From the IMG/VR virus record IMGVR_UViG_3300033149_004949, positions 1 to 42,362 of that record: DNA of 42,362 bases; one strand, 5' to 3'. Origin of the DNA: a virus. Positions 926 to 42,160 of the stretch are shown here, piece after piece. The notes under the pieces are model-generated. The model saw only the letters and a list, made by a program, of their open reading frames with translations, did no database searches and was not told where the DNA came from. A program made the translations under genes and the position numbers. Position 1 is the first letter of the stretch. Each line of letters opens with the position of its first letter.

Positions 926-1234
926 TCACGGAATTACAGCTTGCCTTTGCCCTCCCTCCGGCAGGCCGGCAGCATCCCGCCACATTGCCTCGACTTCCTT
1001 GGCCTGTTGGAGATTCTTCCTCAATCGCGCCTTTAGTGGGCCTATTCTCGCAGGATCATCGCCCTCGAGGTCCGAAAGGATGCTTTCAAGTAAACTACCT
1101 TCAGCGGCAGCGACGATGATGGCCTGTTCGAAGCCTCGCGACCTCACGTGGTCTTTATAGATCAAGAAGCCGACAATCAGGGCCACATTCAACAGTAATG
1201 AACTCGCCGTAACTACTTTCATCGCTTTGCTCAT
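926..1234 (-). CDS. Small membrane-anchored protein, last gene of peptide operon
   Basis: A 102-residue protein with a short charged N-terminus, one hydrophobic helix at about residues 9-26, and a helical, charged remainder rich in Ala, Glu and Arg. The ATG follows AAGGAA at a suitable distance. The stop of the preceding 46-codon gene ends only three bases before this ATG, so the two are probably translated together. The topology suggests an inner-membrane anchor with the bulk on one side. I do not recognise a family. Its place as the final gene after the Tat-exported proteins is the only clue to function; a role with the exported peptide is possible but unproven. Confidence 0.65.
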   Translation of the reverse strand: MSKAMKVVTASSLLLNVALIVGFLIYKDHVRSRGFEQAIIVAAAEGSLLESILSDLEGDDPARIGPLKARLRKNLQQAKEVEAMWRDAAGLPEGGQRQAVIP

Positions 1235-1237
1235 CGG

Positions 1238-1378
1238 TCATTTCCTTACCGGCCAGCTTGGTTGTTGCTGTACTTCCTTGCGATCCCTATTACGCTTGCG
1301 CAGAATAGTACAGACCACGCCATTCCTGAATACATACACTCCCTCGTATTCCCAGGCAAGTGCCATCAACTTGGCCAT
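1238..1378 (-). CDS. 46-residue basic small protein
   Basis: ATG at 1378, TGA at 1238-1240, giving a basic protein that begins MAKLMALAWEYEGVYVF and ends in an Arg/Lys/Gln-rich tail. A GGTGAG ribosome-binding site lies about nine bases before the ATG. The stop and the ATG of the downstream 102-residue gene are separated by three bases, the spacing of coupled genes, which argues that this short frame is real. It has no signal peptide and no recognisable domain. An 81-bp gap separates it from the beta-propeller gene, so it may belong to the same transcript. Confidence 0.5.
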   Translation of the reverse strand: MAKLMALAWEYEGVYVFRNGVVCTILRKRNRDRKEVQQQPSWPVRK

Positions 1379-1459
1379 GTTGGTCTCACCTCAGCACCAT
1401 CTAACTTCAGCCGATATACGAGCCACTCCCAACTATCCACGTTTGCCCGAGAGCATGCA

Positions 1460-2560
1460 TTAGAGGGGCAGCCTTGCCATCTTGGATCTCGGCTTCCCGC
1501 TGATGTCAAAAGCACTCAGTGCCTCGTGTACCTGACGGGTCTTCAGAATATCCTCGAAGAAACTATGTCCGCCATCGCTGAGCACAACAACATCGAGCAC
1601 AGTCAATGCGCTGCTATCGGCCATACTTACTGGAGCATAGAAATGGTACGATAGGTCATCCTGTGCAATCCCAGGGACTTCCTTCACAAAGCAACTCTTA
1701 GCCAAATCATATATCTTGATTACTGGCAACCCATCCAGGATCGCATAGAGAAATACATATTTCGCAGTGGGGCATAGGCTTGCTGATGCGAAGGCATCCA
1801 TATCATTCAACGGTATTCTGCGATCATCAACAATACGATTCGGCTTGGCGCGGCAGACATTGACTTCAATGCCCTGTGTGCTACGAGTTTGCTTTGTGAA
1901 GTGCAGCTCGTCTTGTCGGGTCGTAATACTACCGATTCGGTTGCACTGCTGGGGGCCGATCAGCGTGCGGATTGCCCCCGATGTGCAGTCAATCACCACA
2001 ATCGAATTGTCGTTGCCACACATACACACGGCGTTATCGCCATACCATGTCAGGCCACCATCCACGCGCACGTCTGTAAGTAACTGTCGTCCGCTGCCGC
2101 TCTCTTCCCCAATCCTAACAAGCTCTCGAACAGCTCTCGTGTCTACGTTGACTAGGTAAACCGATACTGTGGCCAATCTGGAAGCGCTATTCTTGTCGAG
2201 TGAGGTGGCGGCAAACGCAATGTGCTTCTCGTCAGGGGACCACGCTATGGAATGAATATCTGAGCCGCCACTCGTCGCGGACCATATAGCTGCAAACTCG
2301 GTGGCACTGTCATCCGAATTTGCATAGAGACCGACATCTCCCAGCGTCCCAGCCGCCACGGCGGAGAGTGTCCTGGGGCTGGAAAACGCGGCAGAAGTGG
2401 TTAGCGCCGTGTTGGGCTGGGGGAGCAATTGTGTGCCTAACGGCTTAGGGAGCGAAACGGGAGGAGTCACATCGCCCAGCGATAACTGCGACAAAGCCAT
2501 AGCAGTGCCAGCAAAAGCCGCATTCTGAATGAATCTTCTTCTTGATATGCTTTCAGGCAT
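1460..2560 (-). CDS. Tat-exported beta-propeller-like protein
   Basis: 366 residues. The N-terminus carries a twin-arginine signal (SRRRFIQNA, residues 6-14) followed by a weakly hydrophobic h-region (AFAGTAMALSQL), so export by Tat is likely. The body repeats short beta-strand units ending in motifs such as IHSIAWSPDEKHIAFAA, GLTWYGDNAVCMCG and ASASLCPTAKYVFLY, typical of WD40/TolB-like propellers. It starts 38 bp after the end of the Cys-rich peptide gene and uses the same SRRRF motif, so the two products probably share the export route. It could bind the mature peptide, or act as an extracytoplasmic scaffold. No catalytic motif is visible. The fold call is inferred from repeat pattern only. 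Confidence 0.7.
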   Translation of the reverse strand: MPESISRRRFIQNAAFAGTAMALSQLSLGDVTPPVSLPKPLGTQLLPQPNTALTTSAAFSSPRTLSAVAAGTLGDVGLYANSDDSATEFAAIWSATSGGSDIHSIAWSPDEKHIAFAATSLDKNSASRLATVSVYLVNVDTRAVRELVRIGEESGSGRQLLTDVRVDGGLTWYGDNAVCMCGNDNSIVVIDCTSGAIRTLIGPQQCNRIGSITTRQDELHFTKQTRSTQGIEVNVCRAKPNRIVDDRRIPLNDMDAFASASLCPTAKYVFLYAILDGLPVIKIYDLAKSCFVKEVPGIAQDDLSYHFYAPVSMADSSALTVLDVVVLSDGGHSFFEDILKTRQVHEALSAFDISGKPRSKMARLPL

Positions 2561-2598
2561 TCTTCACCATACCTTTCCTATATTGTGATATATCCAAG

Positions 2599-3135
2599 CT
2601 AGCCTCCGCCTGAACAGCCATTGGCGACAGGACACGAAATGTCGAAGAGGCCACAGTCAGTATCACTTACGGAGCAAGTATTCGCCGTACACCAATCATC
2701 CTCTGTACAGGTATTCGTTCCGCAAGTATTATAGGAACATGAGTTTGTGCTACATCCGTCCGCATTTGCGCATATGTCAAAATTGCAGACATTCGTGTCA
2801 CATGTATTGCCGCCAGTGCAAGAATTGCCGCTGATAGTACAATGGACCTCATTGTATCCAGTGCAGGTATGTCCATTTTGACAGGTGTTGAAATTGCAGA
2901 CATTGCTGGTCTCACATACGTTGTTCTGAGTACAACTGTTCTCGTCACAATTGTCGCAGCCTGCATCACAACTCTCGCAGCCACAGGCTGCCGCTTCCCC
3001 GTTCAACGCAGCCACCACCCCTGCAGCACCAGCAACTGTCATGGACATTCGCTTCAGGAATCGCCTTCTGCTAATGCCCAATGATCTGAAGATCTCTGGA
3101 AGCTCATACGCTCTTCGACGCGGTGTTGTGTCCAT
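2599..3135 (-). CDS. Cys-rich RiPP precursor peptide with Tat leader
   Basis: About 178-180 residues. Two ATGs are possible: 3141 and 3135. The GAGG at nine bases favours 3135. Residues 24-30 (numbered from 3141) are SRRRFLK, a twin-arginine motif. A hydrophobic stretch and an AAA site follow at about residue 52, directly before the first Cys. The remaining ~125 residues hold 24 cysteines spaced every 4-7 residues, most preceded by Asn-X or Thr, with many Asn, Thr, Asp and Ser. This matches a radical-SAM substrate in which Cys thioethers form a regular ladder. I recall a family annotated as 'Cys-every-fifth' RiPP peptide (CefA); the fit is good but unverified. The gene overlaps the end of the maturase gene by about 32 bases. 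Confidence 0.8.
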   Translation of the reverse strand: MDTTPRRRAYELPEIFRSLGISRRRFLKRMSMTVAGAAGVVAALNGEAAACGCESCDAGCDNCDENSCTQNNVCETSNVCNFNTCQNGHTCTGYNEVHCTISGNSCTGGNTCDTNVCNFDICANADGCSTNSCSYNTCGTNTCTEDDWCTANTCSVSDTDCGLFDISCPVANGCSGGG

Positions 3136-4405
3136 CTGCATTATCCTCGTGATTTGCGGTACTGTCGTTATCCCGCTTACTCGCTAGACTAGGCTTCTGG
3201 TTGTGATAATACGCTTTCATGAACACGGGATTCTCCTCTGCTAGCAACGTATCATGGAACTCCTTAACCACATCCGCAGTCACTCTCATTACGTCACACG
3301 CTGTCGGATGCCGCCGCCAGATATTCCCCGTGTCTTCAAGGTTTTCGGCAGGGCAACCCCCTGAACAGAGATAGTGTGCAGGACATGCCCCACAATAGTG
3401 CATTTCTTCCCCCTTCTGGCCCAGATCGTCAATGAAGCCTTTGCTCTCATAGTTGAAATCCCCGTCATATATTGATCCTAGCCTCCATTCGTATTGGTCT
3501 TCCCTGCACCACCGATGGCATGGCCAAATATCGCCGTTGACATCTATCAATACCATCCCTCGGCCCGCTCCACAAGAGGCGGATACTGAGGGTCGCGAGC
3601 CAGTACTGGCCAATTGTCTGCATCCCTCATCGAAGAATTTCAGTTTGACAAACTGCCCATCTCGGAATATACGGATGACCCGGAGCATGATAGCTCTAAA
3701 CTGTTCAGCAAACTCCGTTACCGACTTCTCATCCCATAGCGCAAACGCCCCTGGAACAAGCGCGATATCCCTGTATCCAAGGGCTAGAAGGTACTCGAAA
3801 CTCTCTGCTAGGTTCTCGACAGTATCGGGCAACACAGTGGATCTGGCGGTCGTGTTCGGCCGAACAGAGAGAATCCTGGGCAGGTTCCCGGCAAGTACAT
3901 CCGAAGTCCCCCTTCCGTCAACAAAACGGCGGTGCCGATCCTGTACCCCTGGGCAACCGTCTATTGATGTATGGAAACCTAGGCCCCATTGTCTCCACAG
4001 AGACAGGATGTCTTCAGTAAGTATCGTGCCATTTGTTGTCATCCCAAAATGGATCTCTTTGCCATGCTGATAGGCCCTTCGCTTTGCAAACGGGACAAGC
4101 TCCCTTATCACACCAAAGCGCAGTAATGGCTCTCCGCCTATGAAGGTTGCTGTAATCTTGGGAGACTCGCCGCTTGCCAGAATAAGCCACACTATGGCAT
4201 CTTGGGCCGTCTCAAGTGACATATGCTTGGTGCCCCTTTCCTTGAAGCAGTAGTCACAGGCAAGATTGCAGTCTACAGTAAGGTCTAGATCTATAGCAGT
4301 GATCGTTACTCCCCCGATCGGCATGGACCCTGGATGGACCGTCTTCCGGCAGGCATGTGGCATGCATGTGGAGCCGGGAGTGCAGTTTCCTGTGGCATAG
4401 CTCAT
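3104..4405 (-). CDS. Radical SAM/SPASM peptide maturase
   Basis: 433 residues. The ATG at 4405 shares its A with the TGA of the upstream gene (TGATG), which decides the start over an earlier ATG at 4465. The radical SAM triad is Cys46-x3-Cys50-x2-Cys53 (CNLACDYCF). A GGEP motif lies at residues 90-93, TTNG near 124, and SIDG near 148. The SPASM domain has Cys278, Cys296, Cys338, Cys341, Cys347, Cys351 and Cys370, binding auxiliary iron-sulfur clusters. Such enzymes cleave S-adenosylmethionine and install thioether or carbon crosslinks in ribosomal peptides. The adjacent 24-Cys peptide is the obvious substrate. Three further Cys lie near the N-terminus (8, 14, 19). It would act in the cytoplasm before Tat export. 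Confidence 0.93.
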   Translation of the reverse strand: MSYATGNCTPGSTCMPHACRKTVHPGSMPIGGVTITAIDLDLTVDCNLACDYCFKERGTKHMSLETAQDAIVWLILASGESPKITATFIGGEPLLRFGVIRELVPFAKRRAYQHGKEIHFGMTTNGTILTEDILSLWRQWGLGFHTSIDGCPGVQDRHRRFVDGRGTSDVLAGNLPRILSVRPNTTARSTVLPDTVENLAESFEYLLALGYRDIALVPGAFALWDEKSVTEFAEQFRAIMLRVIRIFRDGQFVKLKFFDEGCRQLASTGSRPSVSASCGAGRGMVLIDVNGDIWPCHRWCREDQYEWRLGSIYDGDFNYESKGFIDDLGQKGEEMHYCGACPAHYLCSGGCPAENLEDTGNIWRRHPTACDVMRVTADVVKEFHDTLLAEENPVFMKAYYHNQKPSLASKRDNDSTANHEDNADGHNTASKSV

Positions 4406-5661
4406 CACATATCCTCGCCCAATGGCATTGATCGTTTGTGCACACAAGCCCGGAGATCCAAGCATTCACTGGCAACTCTCCGCAGGTACGCTTTCCGAGA
4501 TGAACACCACACACTACTGATGGAATGATACTGCTCCCGAGAGACGCTTGAGCAACTGTCCAAGCCGCCACATATATGCTTCCATGAGCAACTCCTACAT
4601 CGACCATATAGCCGTGGCTGCCTGTGAGAAGAGAACACATTCGGGGCACCGGCACCGCTAGTGCTCTGCGGAGTATGTCTCAGTAGCGCTGTAAATGGGA
4701 ATGCACGAAACCGCAATATTCGCCCATCCCCTTCTACCAATGCGTGAATATGGTTCCTGGTTCCACAATGTGATATGCGATCTTCCATATCCTCAAAGGG
4801 CTCGTCCATGAACTCAGACAATGAATGATCAGCGTAGCAACCGTCCAATGCCGCCAGGAAACCGGTGCCGTCAATACGACCGTCATCGTCTGCCGGATTG
4901 AAGTATGGCGACATAAAGTACGGCAGCAACCCTATCCCAGATAGCTTGTTTGACACCAACGCGTTTCTCAGCACGTTCGCAACGCTTTCGGCATCCTCGC
5001 CAGACCAATAGTACAAGACAGGAACACGAAGCCCGTAGCTGCATGTTCTTGACAAGGTCCCCCCTTCTCTCCCGTCAAGACCTGTAGCATAACCCAGACG
5101 TGATCCCAGGATATATCTCAGTATGACCTTGTGCCTTACCAAGAAATCCATATGATCTGAGCTGGGGCACGAAAACGATGCGTCTATGAATACATTCGTG
5201 GTGATTCTGGCGCCATGGGGGTCCCCGTTTACACTGCAAAAAGTCTTTATCCACGCTATGACGCTATCCCACTCAAATGTATCTGGACCAGTATCGAGGA
5301 AGATCCGCAGTCTTGATATGTTGGTTGCATCGGAGGCCATACCCTTGATCGCCATGACGCTCTCTGGGCCAGAGAGGCACGAGCGCCGACAGTATAAACT
5401 AACGCTTGCGCCATCCCTCCCCTTCCCGCCTGCCTTCCGGTATGGTACAGTAGTATTCTCTGATGCGCTCAGGCCTAGCTTGTGTTTCTCGACATTGCAT
5501 GGCTGAAGTAATTCCATAGCCTCTAATTCGGTCAGCACTTCAGCATGCTTTGCGAATCGGTCGAGTACTGCTATCTGGCCAGACCGCAACGGAGCCACTG
5601 GGAGTCCAAGGGCTCGTTCCAGCTCATCAACTACGTCGTAACGGTCTGTATCCATGGCCAT
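4405..5661 (-). CDS. Degenerate radical-SAM-like protein with SPASM-type C-terminus
   Basis: 418 residues. The C-terminus carries a SPASM-like Cys set (Cys355, 358, 364, 370, 386 in RCRSCSWKHICGG and after). The middle looks like a radical SAM barrel in which key parts have changed. The cluster loop reads C91-RRS-C95-LSG, so the third cysteine of CxxxCxxC is Gly98. The GGEP region reads LDTGPD, and ARITTNV resembles the usual TTNG strand. The first 75 residues are unlike radical SAM enzymes and may be a peptide-binding domain. Its stop overlaps the maturase ATG by one base. I infer a non-catalytic partner that holds the peptide or shapes the maturase. A divergent active enzyme is the alternative. 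Confidence 0.7.
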   Translation of the reverse strand: MAMDTDRYDVVDELERALGLPVAPLRSGQIAVLDRFAKHAEVLTELEAMELLQPCNVEKHKLGLSASENTTVPYRKAGGKGRDGASVSLYCRRSCLSGPESVMAIKGMASDATNISRLRIFLDTGPDTFEWDSVIAWIKTFCSVNGDPHGARITTNVFIDASFSCPSSDHMDFLVRHKVILRYILGSRLGYATGLDGREGGTLSRTCSYGLRVPVLYYWSGEDAESVANVLRNALVSNKLSGIGLLPYFMSPYFNPADDDGRIDGTGFLAALDGCYADHSLSEFMDEPFEDMEDRISHCGTRNHIHALVEGDGRILRFRAFPFTALLRHTPQSTSGAGAPNVFSSHRQPRLYGRCRSCSWKHICGGLDSCSSVSREQYHSISSVWCSSRKAYLRRVASECLDLRACVHKRSMPLGEDM

Positions 5662-5883
5662 CTATGGTGTGTCGGGTATCGGCTCGGGAAGGTTAGACAG
5701 CCCTCCCTTAGGGTCCAGCCATACTCTCACCACATCCTTATAGGAGTGGCCCAACTCAACGTGGCCACCCGATCAACTCAACCAGATGCCGGTTGCGCCA
5801 ATTCCGCGACACCTTGGACAGGTACACCATGGGGCATTCGATACTGGCGACTCCTGCCTTCCACAGTTGGCATGATATAGCAC
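5662..5883 (-). pseudogene. Small zinc-ribbon-like frame interrupted by an in-frame TGA
   Basis: From a GTG at 5883 one frame reads 36 residues including NCGRQESPVSN and APWCTCPRCRG, a zinc-ribbon-like Cys set. It meets TGA at 5773-5775, then continues 36 codons in the same frame (HSYKDVVRVWLDPKGG and beyond) to a TAG at 5662-5664 that touches the ATG of the next gene. Both halves look protein-like and the final TAG-ATG junction resembles a coupled operon gene. It is either a gene broken by a nonsense change, two tiny genes, or a read-through frame. No ribosome-binding site is obvious before the GTG. Confidence 0.35.
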
Positions 5884-5886
5884 TAT

Positions 5887-7380
5887 TTAGGAGCCATCGA
5901 TGGCTCCCACGAGAAACTTCTGCAGTCCCTGAGCCTTCAGCCAATCTAGTACGATCTTAGTGGCTGCTCCGTCATTGCCCAGAGCCCCTAGGGCACGAGC
6001 AAGATTGGAGATATCCTGAGGCTTCATAGCCTGCAAGTCATCATCCTTACCTACGGGGAACACTTCCAATAGCCTTCTTCCCCAAAGTTGACGTTCCTCC
6101 TCGTCGAGTCCGTCATGGTAGTACTTGGCAAATTGACTCCAACGATGGGTCCCAACTGATCCCGCAACTGAGTCATTCAGGAAGTATTTGCCGGTTATGT
6201 GTATGGCCACTCTCCTGCGCCCCGACGTAACCGCCTGTTCTGCCGGGTAGCCATACCCAAGTCTTCGACCAAGATCCGCAAGCTGGTCTACTGTCCAAGT
6301 CTTCCACGTGTCGCTATGGCCCGTCCAAGTAGCCAAGAACTCATTCCCATGCTGTTCGCCGAGTTCCCAGAGAACGTCCTGAATCGCTCGTGCTTCCTGA
6401 TACCCCATGGCCCGAGTACCATAGGTCGTCCTTAACTTATTTCGCCAGCCTGCCAGAGCTGCCGCGGCAGTCGGGGCATTCTTCAAGGACGCCATCGCCC
6501 GCCCTAACGAAAGTGCTTTCTGGAAATCTTCCGGTTGAAGCTCACGGTTTATATGCGTCTCTATCCAAACAAACGCCAGACTCGCAGCCTCTTCCTTCGC
6601 CCCTAAGGTCGACATTGCCTCTGCAACTGGCCCAACACTGTCGATGGAGAGTTCCCCAACGTCACTGTCAGTGACACAGAATGCAGATCGCAGTTTATTG
6701 GCCCACGTGGCTCGCTCGCTTTGGGACAATCCTTCGGTGTAGTACTTCACAAATCGTGTCCAATGCTCGAGTCCGACCGATCTTACTGATGGGTCGTCGG
6801 ACATGTGGGTGGTCGCTATATGACTGGCCACCCGCCTCCTCCCCTGCGTAACTACGGGCTCAACCGGGAATCCCCACCCCAACATGCCGCCAAGCCCGAC
6901 CAACTCCTCAAGAGTCCATGACTGCCACGATGTATGGTTGCCAGTCCACGCCGCAATGAATGCATTCCCGTGCTTCTCTCCCAGCCCCCAGAGCGCGCCC
7001 TGAATTCGCTTTGCCTCTTCATAGCCCATCTCCTTGCTACCGAAGCGAGATCGCAACTGAGTACGCCAATGCTCCCTGGTGGACAACTTCATGTCCTGGC
7101 CAAGGAACGTCACAAACTTCTCCCAGTTGTGCGCATCCACCATGTCCGTCGTGATTTCATCTGCAAGGAATCTGCAACTGATGTAGTCTGCAAGTAGCGT
7201 CCGCTGCTCGGAGGCGGCCTTGCCCTGATTGGCCAGTTGCTCAGATAGCACTGCGAGATCAACGGGGCCCATTGATGACCACTCAACAGGGCATTCAGCG
7301 GCCCGCGATATGGCCGCCGAAAGAGTCAGGGCCACAAGCCCCGCTACTACGCAGAGCCGCTTAATCATTCCGCCCATCAT
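5887..7380 (-). CDS. Exported protein with two tandem copies of a helical domain
   Basis: Up to 497 residues with an N-terminal signal peptide (KRLCVVAGLVALTLSAAISRA, cleavage near AECP). Two copies of a ~130-residue domain follow. Each contains LR[ST]xxGxxxMGYxEAxxIQ, then LW.LGE[KQ]HGN.F.A.WTG, a Trp pair (WQSWT or WKTWT), G[WY]G[FY]P, and GRRRVA.HI, then a segment around W..F.KYY..GL. The first copy lies at about residues 100-245 and the second at about 310-455. The start is uncertain among clustered ATGs (7380, 7377, 7368). The final codons include an 18-bp perfect palindrome GGAGCCATCGATGGCTCC (5889-5906). I do not recognise the family. It heads the minus-strand peptide gene set and would act in the periplasm or paryphoplasm. 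Confidence 0.75.
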   Translation of the reverse strand: MMGGMIKRLCVVAGLVALTLSAAISRAAECPVEWSSMGPVDLAVLSEQLANQGKAASEQRTLLADYISCRFLADEITTDMVDAHNWEKFVTFLGQDMKLSTREHWRTQLRSRFGSKEMGYEEAKRIQGALWGLGEKHGNAFIAAWTGNHTSWQSWTLEELVGLGGMLGWGFPVEPVVTQGRRRVASHIATTHMSDDPSVRSVGLEHWTRFVKYYTEGLSQSERATWANKLRSAFCVTDSDVGELSIDSVGPVAEAMSTLGAKEEAASLAFVWIETHINRELQPEDFQKALSLGRAMASLKNAPTAAAALAGWRNKLRTTYGTRAMGYQEARAIQDVLWELGEQHGNEFLATWTGHSDTWKTWTVDQLADLGRRLGYGYPAEQAVTSGRRRVAIHITGKYFLNDSVAGSVGTHRWSQFAKYYHDGLDEEERQLWGRRLLEVFPVGKDDDLQAMKPQDISNLARALGALGNDGAATKIVLDWLKAQGLQKFLVGAIDGS

Positions 7381-7794
7381 TCTTCCTTCTCCTACCCATA
7401 GAAATGACTGTCGCGCCCAATAGCTTACCGGACCGTATCAGCACGCATCTGAAGGGCCTGCCATACGGCTACCCAGACCCCGTTGACGATGCTCACTCTA
7501 ATCTCCACCCCGACTTGTGTCAAGCGGATTCCGCCCTGATTCATTCCCAGTTTGCGTGGGCGATTTCCTTTCTCAGTTCGCGGAGGAGGCGGAAGAGTCC
7601 GGGGAGTCGGTCCATGAAGAGGAACTGTCCAATCGCGAAGAGGCCGTATTCATGGGGTCTATAGTCGCCCCGGGCAACTGGACATGGGCGACAGAGATGG
7701 TAACCGCACCTGCCGGGGCTGTCAAACGCGGACCGGATGCTCTCGACGGCAAACGTCAGCAGGAAAGGGCGACAGGTGTGGTCGCACCACACAG
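7381..7794. other. Gene-poor gap between peptide cluster and prophage
   Basis: No frame here has convincing start signals. A minus frame at 7541-7792 encodes YHLCRPCPVARGDY followed by a Leu/Arg-rich helix and could be the relic of a host or element gene. The prophage late operon terminates at 7795-7830, so the left attachment junction is likely in or near this gap. The promoter of the peptide cluster should also lie near 7381-7450, though I see no clear consensus. Confidence 0.4.
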
Positions 7795-7830
7795 AGAAAA
7801 GAAGGCCCGGTCCGGGGGAGAGACCAGGCC
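7795..7830 (-). terminator. Intrinsic terminator of the prophage late operon
   Basis: Read on the minus strand, GGCCTGGTC (7830-7822) pairs with GACCGGGCC (7812-7804) with one G-T wobble and a C-rich loop, followed by TTCTTTTC. It lies about 115 bases downstream of the last tail-side gene. The ribosome would have left by then, so it is well placed to end the long structural transcript. Confidence 0.6.
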
Positions 7831-7946
7831 AATTTCCGGCCAGGGAGGGGGAGCCCTAACCGTGGGTTGCAGCCTACCAGAAAAACGTGCTTCTACGCAA
7901 GGTCAAGGCTGACAAGAGTAGCTCGTGGCTGTTACCTTTCGGCGGA

Positions 7947-8153
7947 TTAATCGCCTGACCGATGAATGCAGACTTGGCAAATACCGGCGTCGACATCCCG
8001 GCCAGTGAGTTGGCAAAGACTTGGCTGGCCGCAGCAGTTGGGCACGAGATGCGGGCAGCGATCTGTGGCAGTTGCGCCGCGTCGTCTGCGCAGTTCCGCC
8101 ACCGTCCTCACAGCGTCTCCTGGCCCTTTGCCGAAGGCTCTCAATTTCGTCAT
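7947..8153 (-). CDS. Small Cys-rich prophage protein, distal tail operon
   Basis: 68 residues, ATG at 8153 overlapping the TGA of the preceding gene (ATGA), which supports this start over an upstream in-frame ATG. The N-terminal half is basic and helical. The C-terminal half has seven Cys and a His in CPHLVPNCC, LCQL and ICQVCIH, likely a small metal-binding fold. It is the last gene of the late operon. Function unknown; small zinc-binding proteins often end tail operons of phages in this lineage. Confidence 0.65.
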   Translation of the reverse strand: MTKLRAFGKGPGDAVRTVAELRRRRGATATDRCPHLVPNCCGQPSLCQLTGRDVDAGICQVCIHRSGD

Positions 8154-8779
8154 AGCGTCACCGTCCAGTAGCCGCAGAAGCACGCGCTACCCGGGCTGGA
8201 GGCGTGCTCGTCGCACCAGCCGGGCGGGTAGGTGTTGCCGCTACAGTCCTTCATCACCAGGTCGAACGCCCCCGTCAGTTGCCCGCCCACGCACGAGACA
8301 TGTTCCGTCACGTCCTGCATGTCGGCCAGGCACGAACCGATGAAGCAGCTATCCGGGCAGCCCTCGCACGGGTCCACCAGGACGCTGGGGCCGGTGTAGT
8401 ACAGCCCCGCTTCGATCCGCACCCCGTCCGGCTTGCTCGCGTCGGTATAGCAGCCGATCCATAGCTTGTAGTAGAACGTCCACGTCTCCGGGTAGTATGG
8501 GTGGTCCACGAGCCGCCGCATTTCGTACAACCACTCGGTCCAGCCCGTCCCGTACCACTTCATGCAGAGGTGTTCGTACGTTCCGTCGGCCAGGAACTCG
8601 ACGTACCACCACGGAGCGTTGTCGTTGTAGTTCTCGATGTTGTCATCGTTCACCGACGGCGTGCCGACCCAATCGCGGCAGGCCTCGCAGCAGTTGCCCG
8701 CGATGGCGCAGTCGGTTGCCAACACACCACCGGTCGGACGTGTGAGGATAGCGACGTCGCCGGCCATGATCGGAGCCAT
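8150..8779 (-). CDS. Cys- and Trp-rich putative virion protein (tail tip/fibre region)
   Basis: 209 residues. The ATG at 8779 lies in TAATG, sharing a base with the upstream stop, so the much longer upstream extension of the frame is not coding. The sequence is rich in Cys, Trp and Tyr (NCCEACRDW, WYVEFLADG, WTFYYKLWIG, PCEGCPDSCF), with many likely disulfides or metal sites. The composition and the last-but-one position in the tail operon fit a surface-exposed distal tail or receptor-facing protein. No named family is recognised. Confidence 0.65.
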   Translation of the reverse strand: MAPIMAGDVAILTRPTGGVLATDCAIAGNCCEACRDWVGTPSVNDDNIENYNDNAPWWYVEFLADGTYEHLCMKWYGTGWTEWLYEMRRLVDHPYYPETWTFYYKLWIGCYTDASKPDGVRIEAGLYYTGPSVLVDPCEGCPDSCFIGSCLADMQDVTEHVSCVGGQLTGAFDLVMKDCSGNTYPPGWCDEHASSPGSACFCGYWTVTL

Positions 8780-22160: not shown

Positions 22161-22181
22161 TTCCTTCACTACCTACCGCCG
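22161..22181 (-). repeat. 21-bp operon-front repeat, copy 1
   Basis: On the minus strand this reads CGGCGGTAGGTAGTGAAGGAA. It is identical to 35215-35235 and differs by one base over 20 from 41936-41955. It ends ten bases before the ATG of the 65-residue gene. Part of it (GAAGGAA) could double as ribosome-binding sequence, but identity over 21 bp goes beyond that. Confidence 0.75.
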
Positions 22182-22245
22182 AGGAGCGCTATGTGTCCGG
22201 GCGTGGGCCACGCGGGGGATGAGGGTTCCAGATATGGAAAGAATG

Positions 22246-35214: not shown

Positions 35215-35235
35215 TTCCTTCACTACCTACCGCCG
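35215..35235 (-). repeat. 21-bp operon-front repeat, copy 2
   Basis: CGGCGGTAGGTAGTGAAGGAA on the minus strand, identical to copy 1 at 22161-22181. It lies between the sigma factor stop and the first gene of the recombination operon, with a separate ribosome-binding site (AGAGGA) nearer the start codon, so here it cannot be just a ribosome-binding site. Confidence 0.75.
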
Positions 35236-35263
35236 CCGGGGCGGGCCTGTCCGGCGCTGACGT

Positions 35264-39144: not shown

Positions 39145-39546
39145 TCAGTTTCCGCTTGTGAGTTCCGCCCAGAGTTTCCGCTGTTTTCGCCAGTCGGGGA
39201 TAGCGGCGACGGGCCGGATCATGCGCTCGCCGACAGGGTCGCGGCCGCAAGTGGTGCGGGGCAGGAACAGAAGTTCCTCCTGGATGTCCGGGGCCAGGAG
39301 GGTGAGGTTCATAATCTGCGTCAGTCGGGCGCGGGTGACGCCGCCCAGGCGGGCCAGGTCGGCATAGTCGCGGGCCACACCTTCGCCGAGCAAACGCTCG
39401 AAGCGGATCGCCAGGGCCATTAGACGAGACACGCGCGGAATGCTGCCCGGTTCGACAATCGGTTCCGGCGACGGGTCACCGACCTTGAGCGTCTTCCGCG
39501 TCCTGCGGCCAACCTCGAAATGGACCTTACACTCGACGGTCAGCAT
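39145..39546 (-). CDS. HTH protein associated with the serine recombinase
   Basis: 133 residues, ATG at 39546 overlapping the recombinase stop by seven bases. It contains RVSRLMALAIRFERLLGEG, then the helix-turn-helix DYADLARLGGVTRARLTQIMNL (KorB/ParB-like), and a basic C-terminus. Small HTH proteins of this type directly follow large serine recombinases in many phages of this group; a directionality or repressor role is likely. Confidence 0.75.
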   Translation of the reverse strand: MLTVECKVHFEVGRRTRKTLKVGDPSPEPIVEPGSIPRVSRLMALAIRFERLLGEGVARDYADLARLGGVTRARLTQIMNLTLLAPDIQEELLFLPRTTCGRDPVGERMIRPVAAIPDWRKQRKLWAELTSGN

Positions 39547-41111
39547 GTTACGCCCTCCAATTCCTCGGCCAGCGCCTTGATCCCGGTCGGTCGGAACGTA
39601 ATGGCCAGCGTTCCGGCCGCGCCGTCGTAGGTGACTTGTTCGATTAGCAGATGCATCACGCGAGCCTGCTCATTGGGCGACAGAGAATCCCAGACCGGAT
39701 CGAACAGGGACAGCGCCCGGGCCAGTTCGCCCTCGTCCACGACCTTCTCGCTCAAGGCGATGATCTGCTCGCGGACCTCGGTGGCGCGCTGCTCGCCCGT
39801 GCGGATGCGTTCCTGGAGGTCGGCCAGTCGCGCCGCCGTCGGCGATTCGCCCGGCGCTGTGGCTTGGTCGATCAACTTGCGGACCTCCGCGCCGTATCGG
39901 GCCAGTTCGCGTTCCAGACGGCGGCGCTCGGTTTGGAGTTCCTCCAGCCCCTTGGTGCTTTGTTGTTTCGCCTGCTTCAACGTTCGGCCGAGGACCTCGT
40001 CATCCTGGCCGATGGCGCGAATGCGGTCCACGACAAACCGCTCGATCTCGGCGGCGGGAACCGACTTGGTCGGGCAATTCTCCCAGCCGCGTTTCTGGGC
40101 GTTCATGCAGACGTAATAGCGGTAGCGCCGGTTCTTCTTCGATGTGTAGGTGTGCATCATGCCGCAGCCGCAAGGCTTGCACTGAAGCAGGCCTTTGAGC
40201 AGGGCTCCGTACTTGTTCCGTACCAGTTTGCCGCCGTTGCGCCCGTTGAGCCGAAGGGCGTCCTGCACGCGGTGCCACAGCGTTTCGCTGACGATTGCCG
40301 AGTGCTCGCCTTCGAAGATTTCCTCGTGGTAGCGTACCTTGCCGATGTACGTGACGTTGGTCAGCAGGCGATAGAGCGCATCCTTGGTGAACCGTCGGTC
40401 ACCGCGCACGTTTCCTTTCTTCGTCGTCCATTGCTTGGTGCGCCAGCCGCGCCGGCCCAACTCCCGGATCGTGGGAATCAGCGACCGGTGGTGCAGATAC
40501 AGTTCGAATATCCGGCGTACCTGCGCCGCCTCGTCCTCGTTGACGCTCACGCGCCCGCCGTTGCCGTTGGAGGTGATGTCGTATCCGAGGATCGGACGAC
40601 CGCCGACCCACTTGCCCTTGCGTCTGGCAGCGGCGATCTTGTCGCGCGTCCGCTCGGAGATGATTTCCCGCTCGAACTGGGCGAACGACAGAAGCACGTT
40701 GAGCATCAAGCGTCCCATCGACGTGCTGGTGTTGAACTGCTGGGTGACCGAGACAAAGGAGACGGAGTGCCGTTCCAACACATCCATGATCCTGGCGAAG
40801 TCGATCAGCGAACGGCTGAGCCGGTCCACCTTATAGACCACGATGCAATCGACCTTCCCCGCATCGATGTCGGCGAGAAGCCGTTGGAGAGCGGGACGGT
40901 CCATGTTGCCGCCCGTGAAACCGCCGTCATCGTACCGCGTGGACGAGACGACCCAGCCCTCATGCTTCTGGCTGGTGATGTACGCCTCGGCGCTTTCGCG
41001 CTGGGCGTCCAACGTGTTGAAATCCTGCTCCAGACCCTCGGCGGTGCTCTTTCGCGTGTAGATGGCGCAGCGAAGCGCCTTGGTTTGTTTCTTGTCAGCC
41101 GAATGTGTCAT
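39540..41111 (-). CDS. Large serine recombinase (phage integrase)
   Basis: 523 residues from the ATG at 41111, which overlaps the previous TGA (ATGA). Catalytic Ser is in IYTRKS; YKVDRLSR and QFEREIISERT are resolvase-domain motifs. A recombinase domain follows (LGYDI..NG, RFTKDALYRLLTNVTYIGK), then a zinc ribbon LQCKPCGCGMMH with C and C near YYVCMNAQKRGWENC, then a long coiled coil (QTERRRLERELARYG). It integrates the phage at a short att core. No match to a tRNA is needed for this enzyme class, though a tRNA-Asn is close. Confidence 0.93.
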   Translation of the reverse strand: MTHSADKKQTKALRCAIYTRKSTAEGLEQDFNTLDAQRESAEAYITSQKHEGWVVSSTRYDDGGFTGGNMDRPALQRLLADIDAGKVDCIVVYKVDRLSRSLIDFARIMDVLERHSVSFVSVTQQFNTSTSMGRLMLNVLLSFAQFEREIISERTRDKIAAARRKGKWVGGRPILGYDITSNGNGGRVSVNEDEAAQVRRIFELYLHHRSLIPTIRELGRRGWRTKQWTTKKGNVRGDRRFTKDALYRLLTNVTYIGKVRYHEEIFEGEHSAIVSETLWHRVQDALRLNGRNGGKLVRNKYGALLKGLLQCKPCGCGMMHTYTSKKNRRYRYYVCMNAQKRGWENCPTKSVPAAEIERFVVDRIRAIGQDDEVLGRTLKQAKQQSTKGLEELQTERRRLERELARYGAEVRKLIDQATAPGESPTAARLADLQERIRTGEQRATEVREQIIALSEKVVDEGELARALSLFDPVWDSLSPNEQARVMHLLIEQVTYDGAAGTLAITFRPTGIKALAEELEGVTC

Positions 41112-41608
41112 GTCTTGCTCCTGCCTTTCATCCCGAAGAAGTACTTCCCGCTCCAGTGCGAGCCGGTGACCGCCTTCGCCACGGCCGAGAGGCTGCGGTA
41201 GACCTCGCCTTCCCACTCAAGACCGTCGTCGAGGACCGTCACCGTAATGGTTCGGCCCTTATACGGACGGGTCAGGATCGTGCCCGGCATCGGGAGACCC
41301 GCGCGGTCGCCGAAGTCCACCTTGGCGGTCCGGGTTGTGGCAAAGGACGATGGCTGCGGCCTGTCCGATGGGCGACGAATCCGCAGGTCGGCATCGTTGG
41401 CAAGTTCCTCGGCGCGCCGCCGGGCGCGTTCGGTCAGGTCGCCTTCGGCGTTGGCCTGCATTCGCCAGACGATCCGCTTCCAGAGGAAGTCCTTGTTGCC
41501 CGACCGTGTCCGCTCACCGAATACCTCCACGTATCGGCCACGCAGCTGCTTAACGGTCATGCGCTTCAGCGTGGCGATCTCGCGTGCAATGTTCAGTTTC
41601 GTGCCCAT
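41108..41608 (-). CDS. DUF2924 protein
   Basis: 166 residues from the ATG at 41608 (an upstream ATG in the frame is not used). It has IAREIATLKRMTVKQLRGRY, VEVFGERTRSGNKDFLWKRI, then a Lys/Arg linker and RPYKGRTITVTVLDDG, LEWEGEVYRSLSAVAKAVTG and WSGKYFFGM, the DUF2924 pattern. DUF2924 genes are regularly paired with phage serine recombinases. It overlaps the recombinase gene by four bases. Its biochemical function is not known. Confidence 0.9.
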   Translation of the reverse strand: MGTKLNIAREIATLKRMTVKQLRGRYVEVFGERTRSGNKDFLWKRIVWRMQANAEGDLTERARRRAEELANDADLRIRRPSDRPQPSSFATTRTAKVDFGDRAGLPMPGTILTRPYKGRTITVTVLDDGLEWEGEVYRSLSAVAKAVTGSHWSGKYFFGMKGRSKT

Positions 41609-41935: not shown

Positions 41936-41955
41936 TCCTTCACTACCTACCACCG
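41936..41955 (-). repeat. Operon-front repeat, copy 3
   Basis: CGGTGGTAGGTAGTGAAGGA on the minus strand, one mismatch over 20 bases to copies 1 and 2. It lies about 100 bases before the first integration-operon gene, so spacing to the start differs among the three copies (10, 30 and 100 bases). Confidence 0.7.
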
Positions 41956-41959
41956 GAGA

Positions 41960-42160
41960 GTTCGAAATGTCGCGTTCGGGGGTCTCAATGCGATAAGGGT
42001 GTTAACCAACGGGGGATGTTAACGAGAGAGCGCGATAGTTTGAGACGCCCCGCGAAGGCCGCCGATTGCAACCCCATAGGTTGGGATCGCACCCCGAATA
42101 TCGCGGCTACGAACCGAGAGCGCGAGCAGTGACGGGTGGGTCGCCGTAAGCCTTTGCGGT
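41960..42160 (+). other. Structured non-coding block, right copy of a diverged direct repeat
   Basis: It aligns with 472-670 over its whole length: GTTCGAAAT (41960), GTTAACC (42001), GAGAGAG (42024), CAACC-CCATA-GGTTG (42069-42083), ACCCC (42091), GAGAGCGCG (42116) and CGCCGTAAGCCTTTGC (42142). GTTTG (42038-42042) pairs with CGAAC (42110-42114), the same helix that the left copy makes with different bases. It lies between the integration operon and tRNA-Asn, i.e. at the right edge of the element. Strand assumed from the left copy. Confidence 0.5.

Follow-up and report, generated by a model that had tools for sequence, protein, structure and literature searches.

Ribosomally synthesized and post-translationally modified peptides (RiPPs) usually derive from small precursors that leave the cell by ABC transporters. 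The twin-arginine translocation (Tat) system accepts pre-structured cargo, and QhpC, the gamma subunit of quinohemoprotein amine dehydrogenase, is cross-linked before export. In the systems closest to the one described here, PapB joins Cys to the beta-carbon of Asp in CX3D and accepts Cys-Xn-Asp with n=0–6 (PMC9413430), QhpD forms Cys-Asp and Cys-Glu thioethers, NxxcA contains a Cys23-Asn20 beta-thioether, and CteA has been described with a Cys32-Thr34 bond, an i/i+2 link (PMC8326336). Here we analyze a gene cassette at one end of the virus record IMGVR_UViG_3300033149_004949 from IMG/VR (42,362 bases; this whole stretch is referred to as the window). It encodes a radical S-adenosylmethionine (SAM)/SPASM enzyme (the maturase), a homologous protein predicted to be inactive (the partner) and a Cys-rich peptide with a twin-arginine leader (the precursor). 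We consider it an even call that the cassette serves Planctomycetota in the biosynthesis of a thioether-rich peptide and its export by Tat, and that the maturase and its dead partner tie each Cys to the Asn or Asp two residues before it (position −2).

All of the cassette genes are present on the minus strand, and their order in the direction of transcription is as follows (sizes in amino acids, aa):

5887..7380, minus strand: 497-aa protein with a signal-like N-terminus and two tandem domains of ~135 aa
4405..5661, minus strand: partner, 418 aa, predicted degenerate radical SAM/SPASM homologue without CxxxCxxC, C-terminal SPASM cysteines (CxxC-x5-C ... C) kept
3104..4405, minus strand: radical SAM/SPASM maturase, 433 aa (the longest open reading frame, ORF, begins at 4465)
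2599..3135, minus strand: precursor, 178 aa (180 aa if translated from 3141), with an N-terminal extension, the Tat leader SRRRFLKR and a 24-Cys core
1460..2560, minus strand: 366-aa Tat-leader protein, probable beta-propeller on weak matches, homologous to the gene following the peptide in the related locus L087
926..1234, minus strand: 102-aa protein with an N-terminal membrane segment, following the propeller-like gene; its membership of the cassette is doubtful

The original prediction, made from the nucleotide sequence, of three coupled genes for a partner, a radical SAM/SPASM enzyme and a 24-Cys peptide was borne out, and these core genes overlap. The stop codon of the partner and the start of the maturase share the sequence ATGA at 4405, which makes 4405, and not 4465, the most likely maturase start. 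The precursor start lies within the 3′ end of the maturase gene (overlap of ~32 nucleotides), and overlapping genes are found in the L087 cassette as well.

The twin-arginine leader, with its hydrophobic stretch, was also confirmed: the window precursor scores 19.5 bits with TAT_signal_seq (NCBIfam; cut-off 16.7). Homologous precursors have an RR leader too, and TatC was detected in seven of eight member genomes. The precursors carry 16–45 Cys and reach 388 aa (45 Cys). In the core of the window precursor the gaps between the 24 Cys are mostly 5–7; as a rule for the repeat, the initial description of cysteines at about every fifth residue was replaced by [N/D]xC. Over nine precursors, comprising eight of the maturase clade described below and one (locus L102, with DxC) of a separate maturase lineage, Asn or Asp precedes Cys at −2 in 173 of 202 cases (86%), compared with 8–39% at other offsets, even though the distance between cysteines ranges from about 5 to 12. 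In a permutation test, eight of the nine gave p≤0.0002, the permutation floor. The window precursor has Asn/Asp at −2 of 16 of its 22 testable cysteines and at +4 of 11 of 23, and does not show the CX3D/E pattern of the PapB family.

In precursors with a variable Cys spacing (6–16 in L215, L236, L237, L238 and L102), the relation to the previous Cys is lost. Asn/Asp is found at −2 of the next Cys in 14/15 (L215), 20/21 (L236), 17/17 (L238) and 25/26 (L102) cases, and at +4 from the previous Cys in 2/16, 7/22, 2/18 and 4/26 cases, respectively. Since Asn/Asp tracks the next Cys despite the variable spacing, the paired unit is [N/D]-x-C, and the motif points to a pairing of Cys with the residue two positions before it. 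In the L102 region (2926-8269; genome G538), whose maturase lies outside the main clade, tatA-like and frame-broken tatC-like genes are located upstream of the radical SAM gene and a precursor of 333 aa, which has a Tat leader and DxC at 25 of the 26 testable cysteines.

The window maturase matches the Pfam family Radical_SAM (8.9e-13). Its best curated-family match is PapB (1.5e-73), followed by nif11-type, QhpD and SCIFF maturases, with all scores far under the cut-offs: 247.9 bits vs 340 for the PapB family NF047865, 193.5 vs 453 for QhpD, 113.8 vs 350 for TIGR04115 (the radical SAM enzyme of the CXXX-repeat system) and, far below PapB, 63.2 vs 600 for CefB (NF038107). The nearest solved structure by sequence is PDB entry 5wgg (7e-35), which we take to be CteB. 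In an alignment with homologues, the three radical SAM cysteines (CxxxCxxC) and the SPASM cysteines are invariant. Only ~45 residues precede CxxxCxxC, and there is therefore no space for the N-terminal domain of RiPP recognition element (RRE) type that several homologues have.

Since these profile matches cover several chemistries (PapB, nif11-type, QhpD, SCIFF and CXXX), the maturase might modify the precursor in another way, by forming sactionine (alpha-carbon) thioethers, by joining Asn/Asp through a thioether to the Cys before it in the manner of PapB (CX3-4N), or by a non-cross-linking change of Asn/Asp combined with Cys disulfides. The hexad precursor of L214 fits the second of these, as Asn/Asp also stands at +4 of the previous Cys in 31 of 45 cases, which is the PapB spacing. 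However, it is the −2 relation that the variable-spacing precursors keep and the +4 relation that they lose, and neither PapB nor QhpD acts on the alpha-carbon (PMC8326336, PMC9413430). We regard such other modifications as rather unlikely.

For the window partner, no family was matched in a Pfam search, and TIGR04119, the partner family of the CXXX-repeat system, gave no match either. Relatives were gathered from L087, L100, L101, L214, L215 and L216, and a partner model from which the L101 protein had been left out recovered it at 6.7e-17. The radical SAM motif CxxxCxxC is absent from the collected partners (the sole regular-expression match, in L214, falls inside the SPASM tail), while the C-terminal SPASM cysteines are kept in most of them. 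In hhalign, a seven-partner profile aligned with a radical SAM/SPASM enzyme profile from the barrel through SPASM (97.3%, E 2.1e-11); a comparison with the maturase profile based on two partners only had given 2.3%. Because of the missing motif and this alignment, the partner is classified, by sequence, as a catalytically dead radical SAM/SPASM homologue. The homologous partner of L101 (genome G424) matches TIGR04119 at 3.8e-13, with 49 bits vs a cut-off of 150.

The distribution of the cassette was examined in Planctomycetota at the level of the order (161 genomes), the class (397 sampled) and the phylum (392 sampled). A scan of genome contigs identified one close relative, L087, in a metagenome-assembled genome of Sedimentisphaerales. 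There, the gene of an exported tetratricopeptide repeat (TPR) protein is followed, in the order of the window, by those of the partner (36% identity), the maturase (58%), the Cys peptide with its Tat leader (44%) and the propeller-like Tat protein (26%). No phage genes were recognised beside it. The more distant members are eight loci from seven additional Planctomycetota genomes, one of which contributes two loci:

L100 (G424) and L214 (G648): partner-maturase-peptide
L215 (G718): peptide-propeller-partner-maturase, partner with one in-frame stop
L216 (G706): propeller-partner-maturase, no peptide seen
L101 (G424): 661-aa Tat protein (144 Cys) ~3 kb upstream of the maturase, then a two-SPASM partner
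L236 (G105), L237 (G261) and L238 (G068): maturase next to peptide

The co-occurrence of maturase, partner, Tat-leader peptide and propeller-like gene, which had been proposed as a check of the original prediction, was thus found, with the full order in L087 and subsets in L100, L214, L215, L216, L236, L237 and L238. Apart from the window there are nine loci, and eight of them have a Tat-like Cys-rich precursor near the maturase. A precursor gene is thus conserved beside a modifying-type enzyme across loci, as is expected of a RiPP system. Ten Planctomycetota maturases, including that of the window, cluster together in the tree with moderate support (80–94). The gene set is real and not a chance arrangement. 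By sequence, it consists of an active-type radical SAM/SPASM enzyme, a homologue without CxxxCxxC, a precursor with a Tat-type leader and many [N/D]-x-C units and, often, an exported propeller-like protein. Members of the cassette family are rare; of the 392 sampled phylum genomes, one contained the partner, as judged with a two-sequence query that is insensitive. Where generic radical SAM/SPASM loci of the class were examined, no [N/D]xC precursor adjoined them.

Two further arrangements were observed. In L101 (2649-4634), the 144 Cys of the 661-aa Tat-leader protein lie in CETG/CEVS-type repeats, in the same region as a maturase of the clade and a 758-aa two-SPASM partner. In L103 (6526-10008), two tandem radical SAM/SPASM genes (73% identical) adjoin the gene of a Tat-leader protein that has RF[AS]xETDE repeats and is less rich in cysteine.

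The recurrence of these loci bears on a second alternative, namely that the precursor stays unmodified, as a Cys-rich exported protein that is built with disulfides or binds metal, and that the radical SAM genes serve something else nearby. Copper storage proteins, which are Tat-exported and rich in Cys, offer a comparison; Tat export and many cysteines also fit metal or disulfide proteins. Nevertheless, adjacency and gene overlap of precursor and maturase recur across divergent genomes and in several gene orders, and Asn/Asp at −2 would correspond to no known copper-storage or ferredoxin-type motif, which renders this explanation improbable.

A third alternative, that the phage whose genes fill 8150-41216 (serine recombinase at 39540-41216) brought the cassette in as prophage cargo, is very improbable. 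In its favour, the cassette directly adjoins phage tail genes on the same strand of an IMG/VR record, and related radical SAM enzymes are encoded together with Cys-rich proteins in many other viral contigs. Against it, cassette genes occur in none of 79 related phage loci (23 of which extend at least 5 kb past the tail gene), the GC content at third codon positions (GC3) drops from ~0.83 to 0.50–0.60, homology to related phages ends near 8150, L087 carries the cassette without a phage, and viral maturases fall outside the cassette clade in the tree, except for one long-branch row. A link of the cassette to the phage was therefore rejected on the related loci, GC3 and the end of homology, and the cassette probably belongs to the host DNA next to a prophage. 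Searches for the maturase among phage and plasmid records turned up only distant homologues (identity ~30% or less), and tblastn of the partner against plasmids gave no match.

Several features of the window and of viral contigs were noted in the course of this comparison. The phage gene adjoining the cassette (8150-8773) encodes a many-Cys protein (CCEACRDW..., CEGCPDSCFIGSC) that is present in 3 of the 79 related loci. A near-identical contig, 3300033141_004964 (L002, 13651-13764), parts from the window at 816, where its sequence becomes unrelated; the point may be an insertion sequence end or an assembly junction. Three copies of TCCTTCACTACCTACC[GA]CCG, apparently intergenic, are located in the prophage region (22162-22197, 35216-35251 and 41936-41971) and may represent a shared regulatory site. 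In viral contigs L009-L086, a Cys-rich repeat ORF lies within 4 kb of a radical SAM/SPASM gene, on the same strand in 58 of 78 loci and on the opposite strand in 11. The repeats vary (CSGC, CETC/CQ and CNC types), and PHROGs assignments are mostly of unknown function. The pairing suggests that phages widely apply radical cross-linking to proteins of their own. Viral Cys-rich proteins were rejected as relatives of the precursor, as they mostly lack [N/D]xC.

Of the proteins flanking the core, the 366-aa protein had been described as a Tat-exported beta-propeller. Its Tat leader was supported (TAT_signal_seq 17.3 bits vs 16.7); the propeller repeats gave WD40/PD40 matches below threshold, so that the fold is probable but weakly indicated. 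The 497-aa protein does have the signal-like N-terminus and the two tandem domains ascribed to it (47% identity to each other, E 9e-48). The other clusters show no conservation of its sequence, and it was dropped as a conserved cassette part, as it has no homology to the TPR protein that L087 has at that place. Other exported helical-repeat proteins are encoded near the clusters in L087, L100 and L101. Relatives of the 102-aa protein (926..1234) were searched for and none were found.

For the preferred reading, that of a thioether-forming and Tat-exporting cassette, the following mechanism may be proposed. The N-terminal extension and the Tat leader of the precursor would act together as its leader. 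The maturase, without an RRE-type domain of its own, would form a complex with the dead homologue, which may hold or position the substrate. It would then abstract a hydrogen from the Asn/Asp side chain, and that carbon would be bonded to the sulfur of the Cys two residues on. In the product, every repeat would hold a single small thioether ring, with no more than about one ring for each Cys and a loss of 2 Da per ring, as the precedents of PapB, QhpD, NxxcA and CteA suggest. The ring-studded chain would be exported by Tat and, outside, the propeller-like and helical-repeat proteins might bind or assemble it, a guess from their co-location. We infer both the cross-links and the function of the product; its most likely role, given with low confidence, is in the envelope or periplasm, as a rigid and reduction-proof component; a small diffusible antibiotic is less likely, because the precursors reach 388 aa with 45 Cys. 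With somewhat less than even confidence, the cassettes may define a naturally occurring class of polythioether proteins that are exported by Tat. Here, an active radical SAM enzyme and its catalytically dead radical SAM/SPASM sister would together turn every [Asn/Asp]-x-Cys into a thioether ring of three residues, with tens of rings in each protein, and the folded product would then be exported to the envelope.

A number of observations weigh against this interpretation. The cross-link chemistry is not visible in sequence, and [N/D]xC would give a small ring with the acceptor upstream of Cys, whereas PapB acceptors are located downstream. One motif does not span the whole clade, because the L100 precursor has Asn/Asp at −2 in only 6 of 15 cases (p 0.14) and the L101 repeat is different (CETG/CEVS type). 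The partner signal is weak or absent in L236-L238, and the propeller-like gene is missing from some clusters. An RRE at the partner N-terminus was considered and is unsupported (hhalign of N-termini 0.15%). AlphaFold2 models were uninformative, with a mean confidence score (pLDDT) of 41 for the partner (two rows) and of 33 for the precursor (three rows).

In the cassette, large precursors bearing a Tat-type leader are encoded next to a radical cross-linking enzyme, in a lineage from which few examples have been studied, and this looks like a natural case of a peptide that would be modified in the cell and then exported folded. Should the [N/D]xC units become thioether rings, they would provide reduction-proof scaffold chemistry with a one-line sequence rule; the cassette would also supply a radical SAM heterodimer in which one subunit is dead, and would allow it to be tested directly whether Tat serves cytoplasmic peptide modification. 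The motif makes this chemistry accessible to simple mutants and mass spectrometry.

In a limited collection of literature, no paper was found that combined twin-arginine export, radical SAM and a ribosomally synthesized precursor peptide. Export by Tat has been reported for an engineered nisin fusion on phage pIII (Hetrick et al., cited in PMC11048544), which shows that a ribosomal peptide can pass through Tat after it has been modified; unlike the cassette, that fusion is not a natural pathway. As in the ranthipeptide systems PapA/PapB (freyrasin), NxxcA/NxxcB and SCIFF (CteA/CteB), a radical SAM/SPASM maturase of the same broad family is encoded beside a Cys-rich precursor, with Asn/Asp as the likely acceptor in the window system. 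Unlike these, the repeat is [N/D]xC and not CX3D or NxxC, with many more units (16–45 Cys), and the window system has a Tat-type leader, a maturase without an N-terminus of RRE length and a separate dead radical SAM partner. It shares with the CXXX-repeat system (TIGR04115 and TIGR04119) the set of radical SAM enzyme, SPASM-type partner and Cys-repeat peptide, but the window precursor has no CXXX repeat, the window partner does not match TIGR04119, scores are far under the cut-offs, and TIGR04119 exceeded its cut-off in none of the 161 genomes of the order. The QhpD/QhpC system has a homologous maturase and Cys-Asp/Glu thioethers; it differs from the window in the Tat leader, the repeat precursor and the two-protein maturase of the latter, and no dehydrogenase subunit genes were found among window ORFs near the maturase. 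CefB (NF038107) is a named family for peptides with Cys at about every fifth residue, and the window maturase is far under its cut-off. The initial view that the system matches no described pathway therefore needs to be qualified: by sequence, the enzyme and its partner are related to ranthipeptide-type maturases of the PapB/QhpD kind and to the NCBIfam CXXX-repeat system, and it is the Tat export route, the dead partner and the [N/D]xC rule that set the cassette apart from known radical SAM peptide systems.

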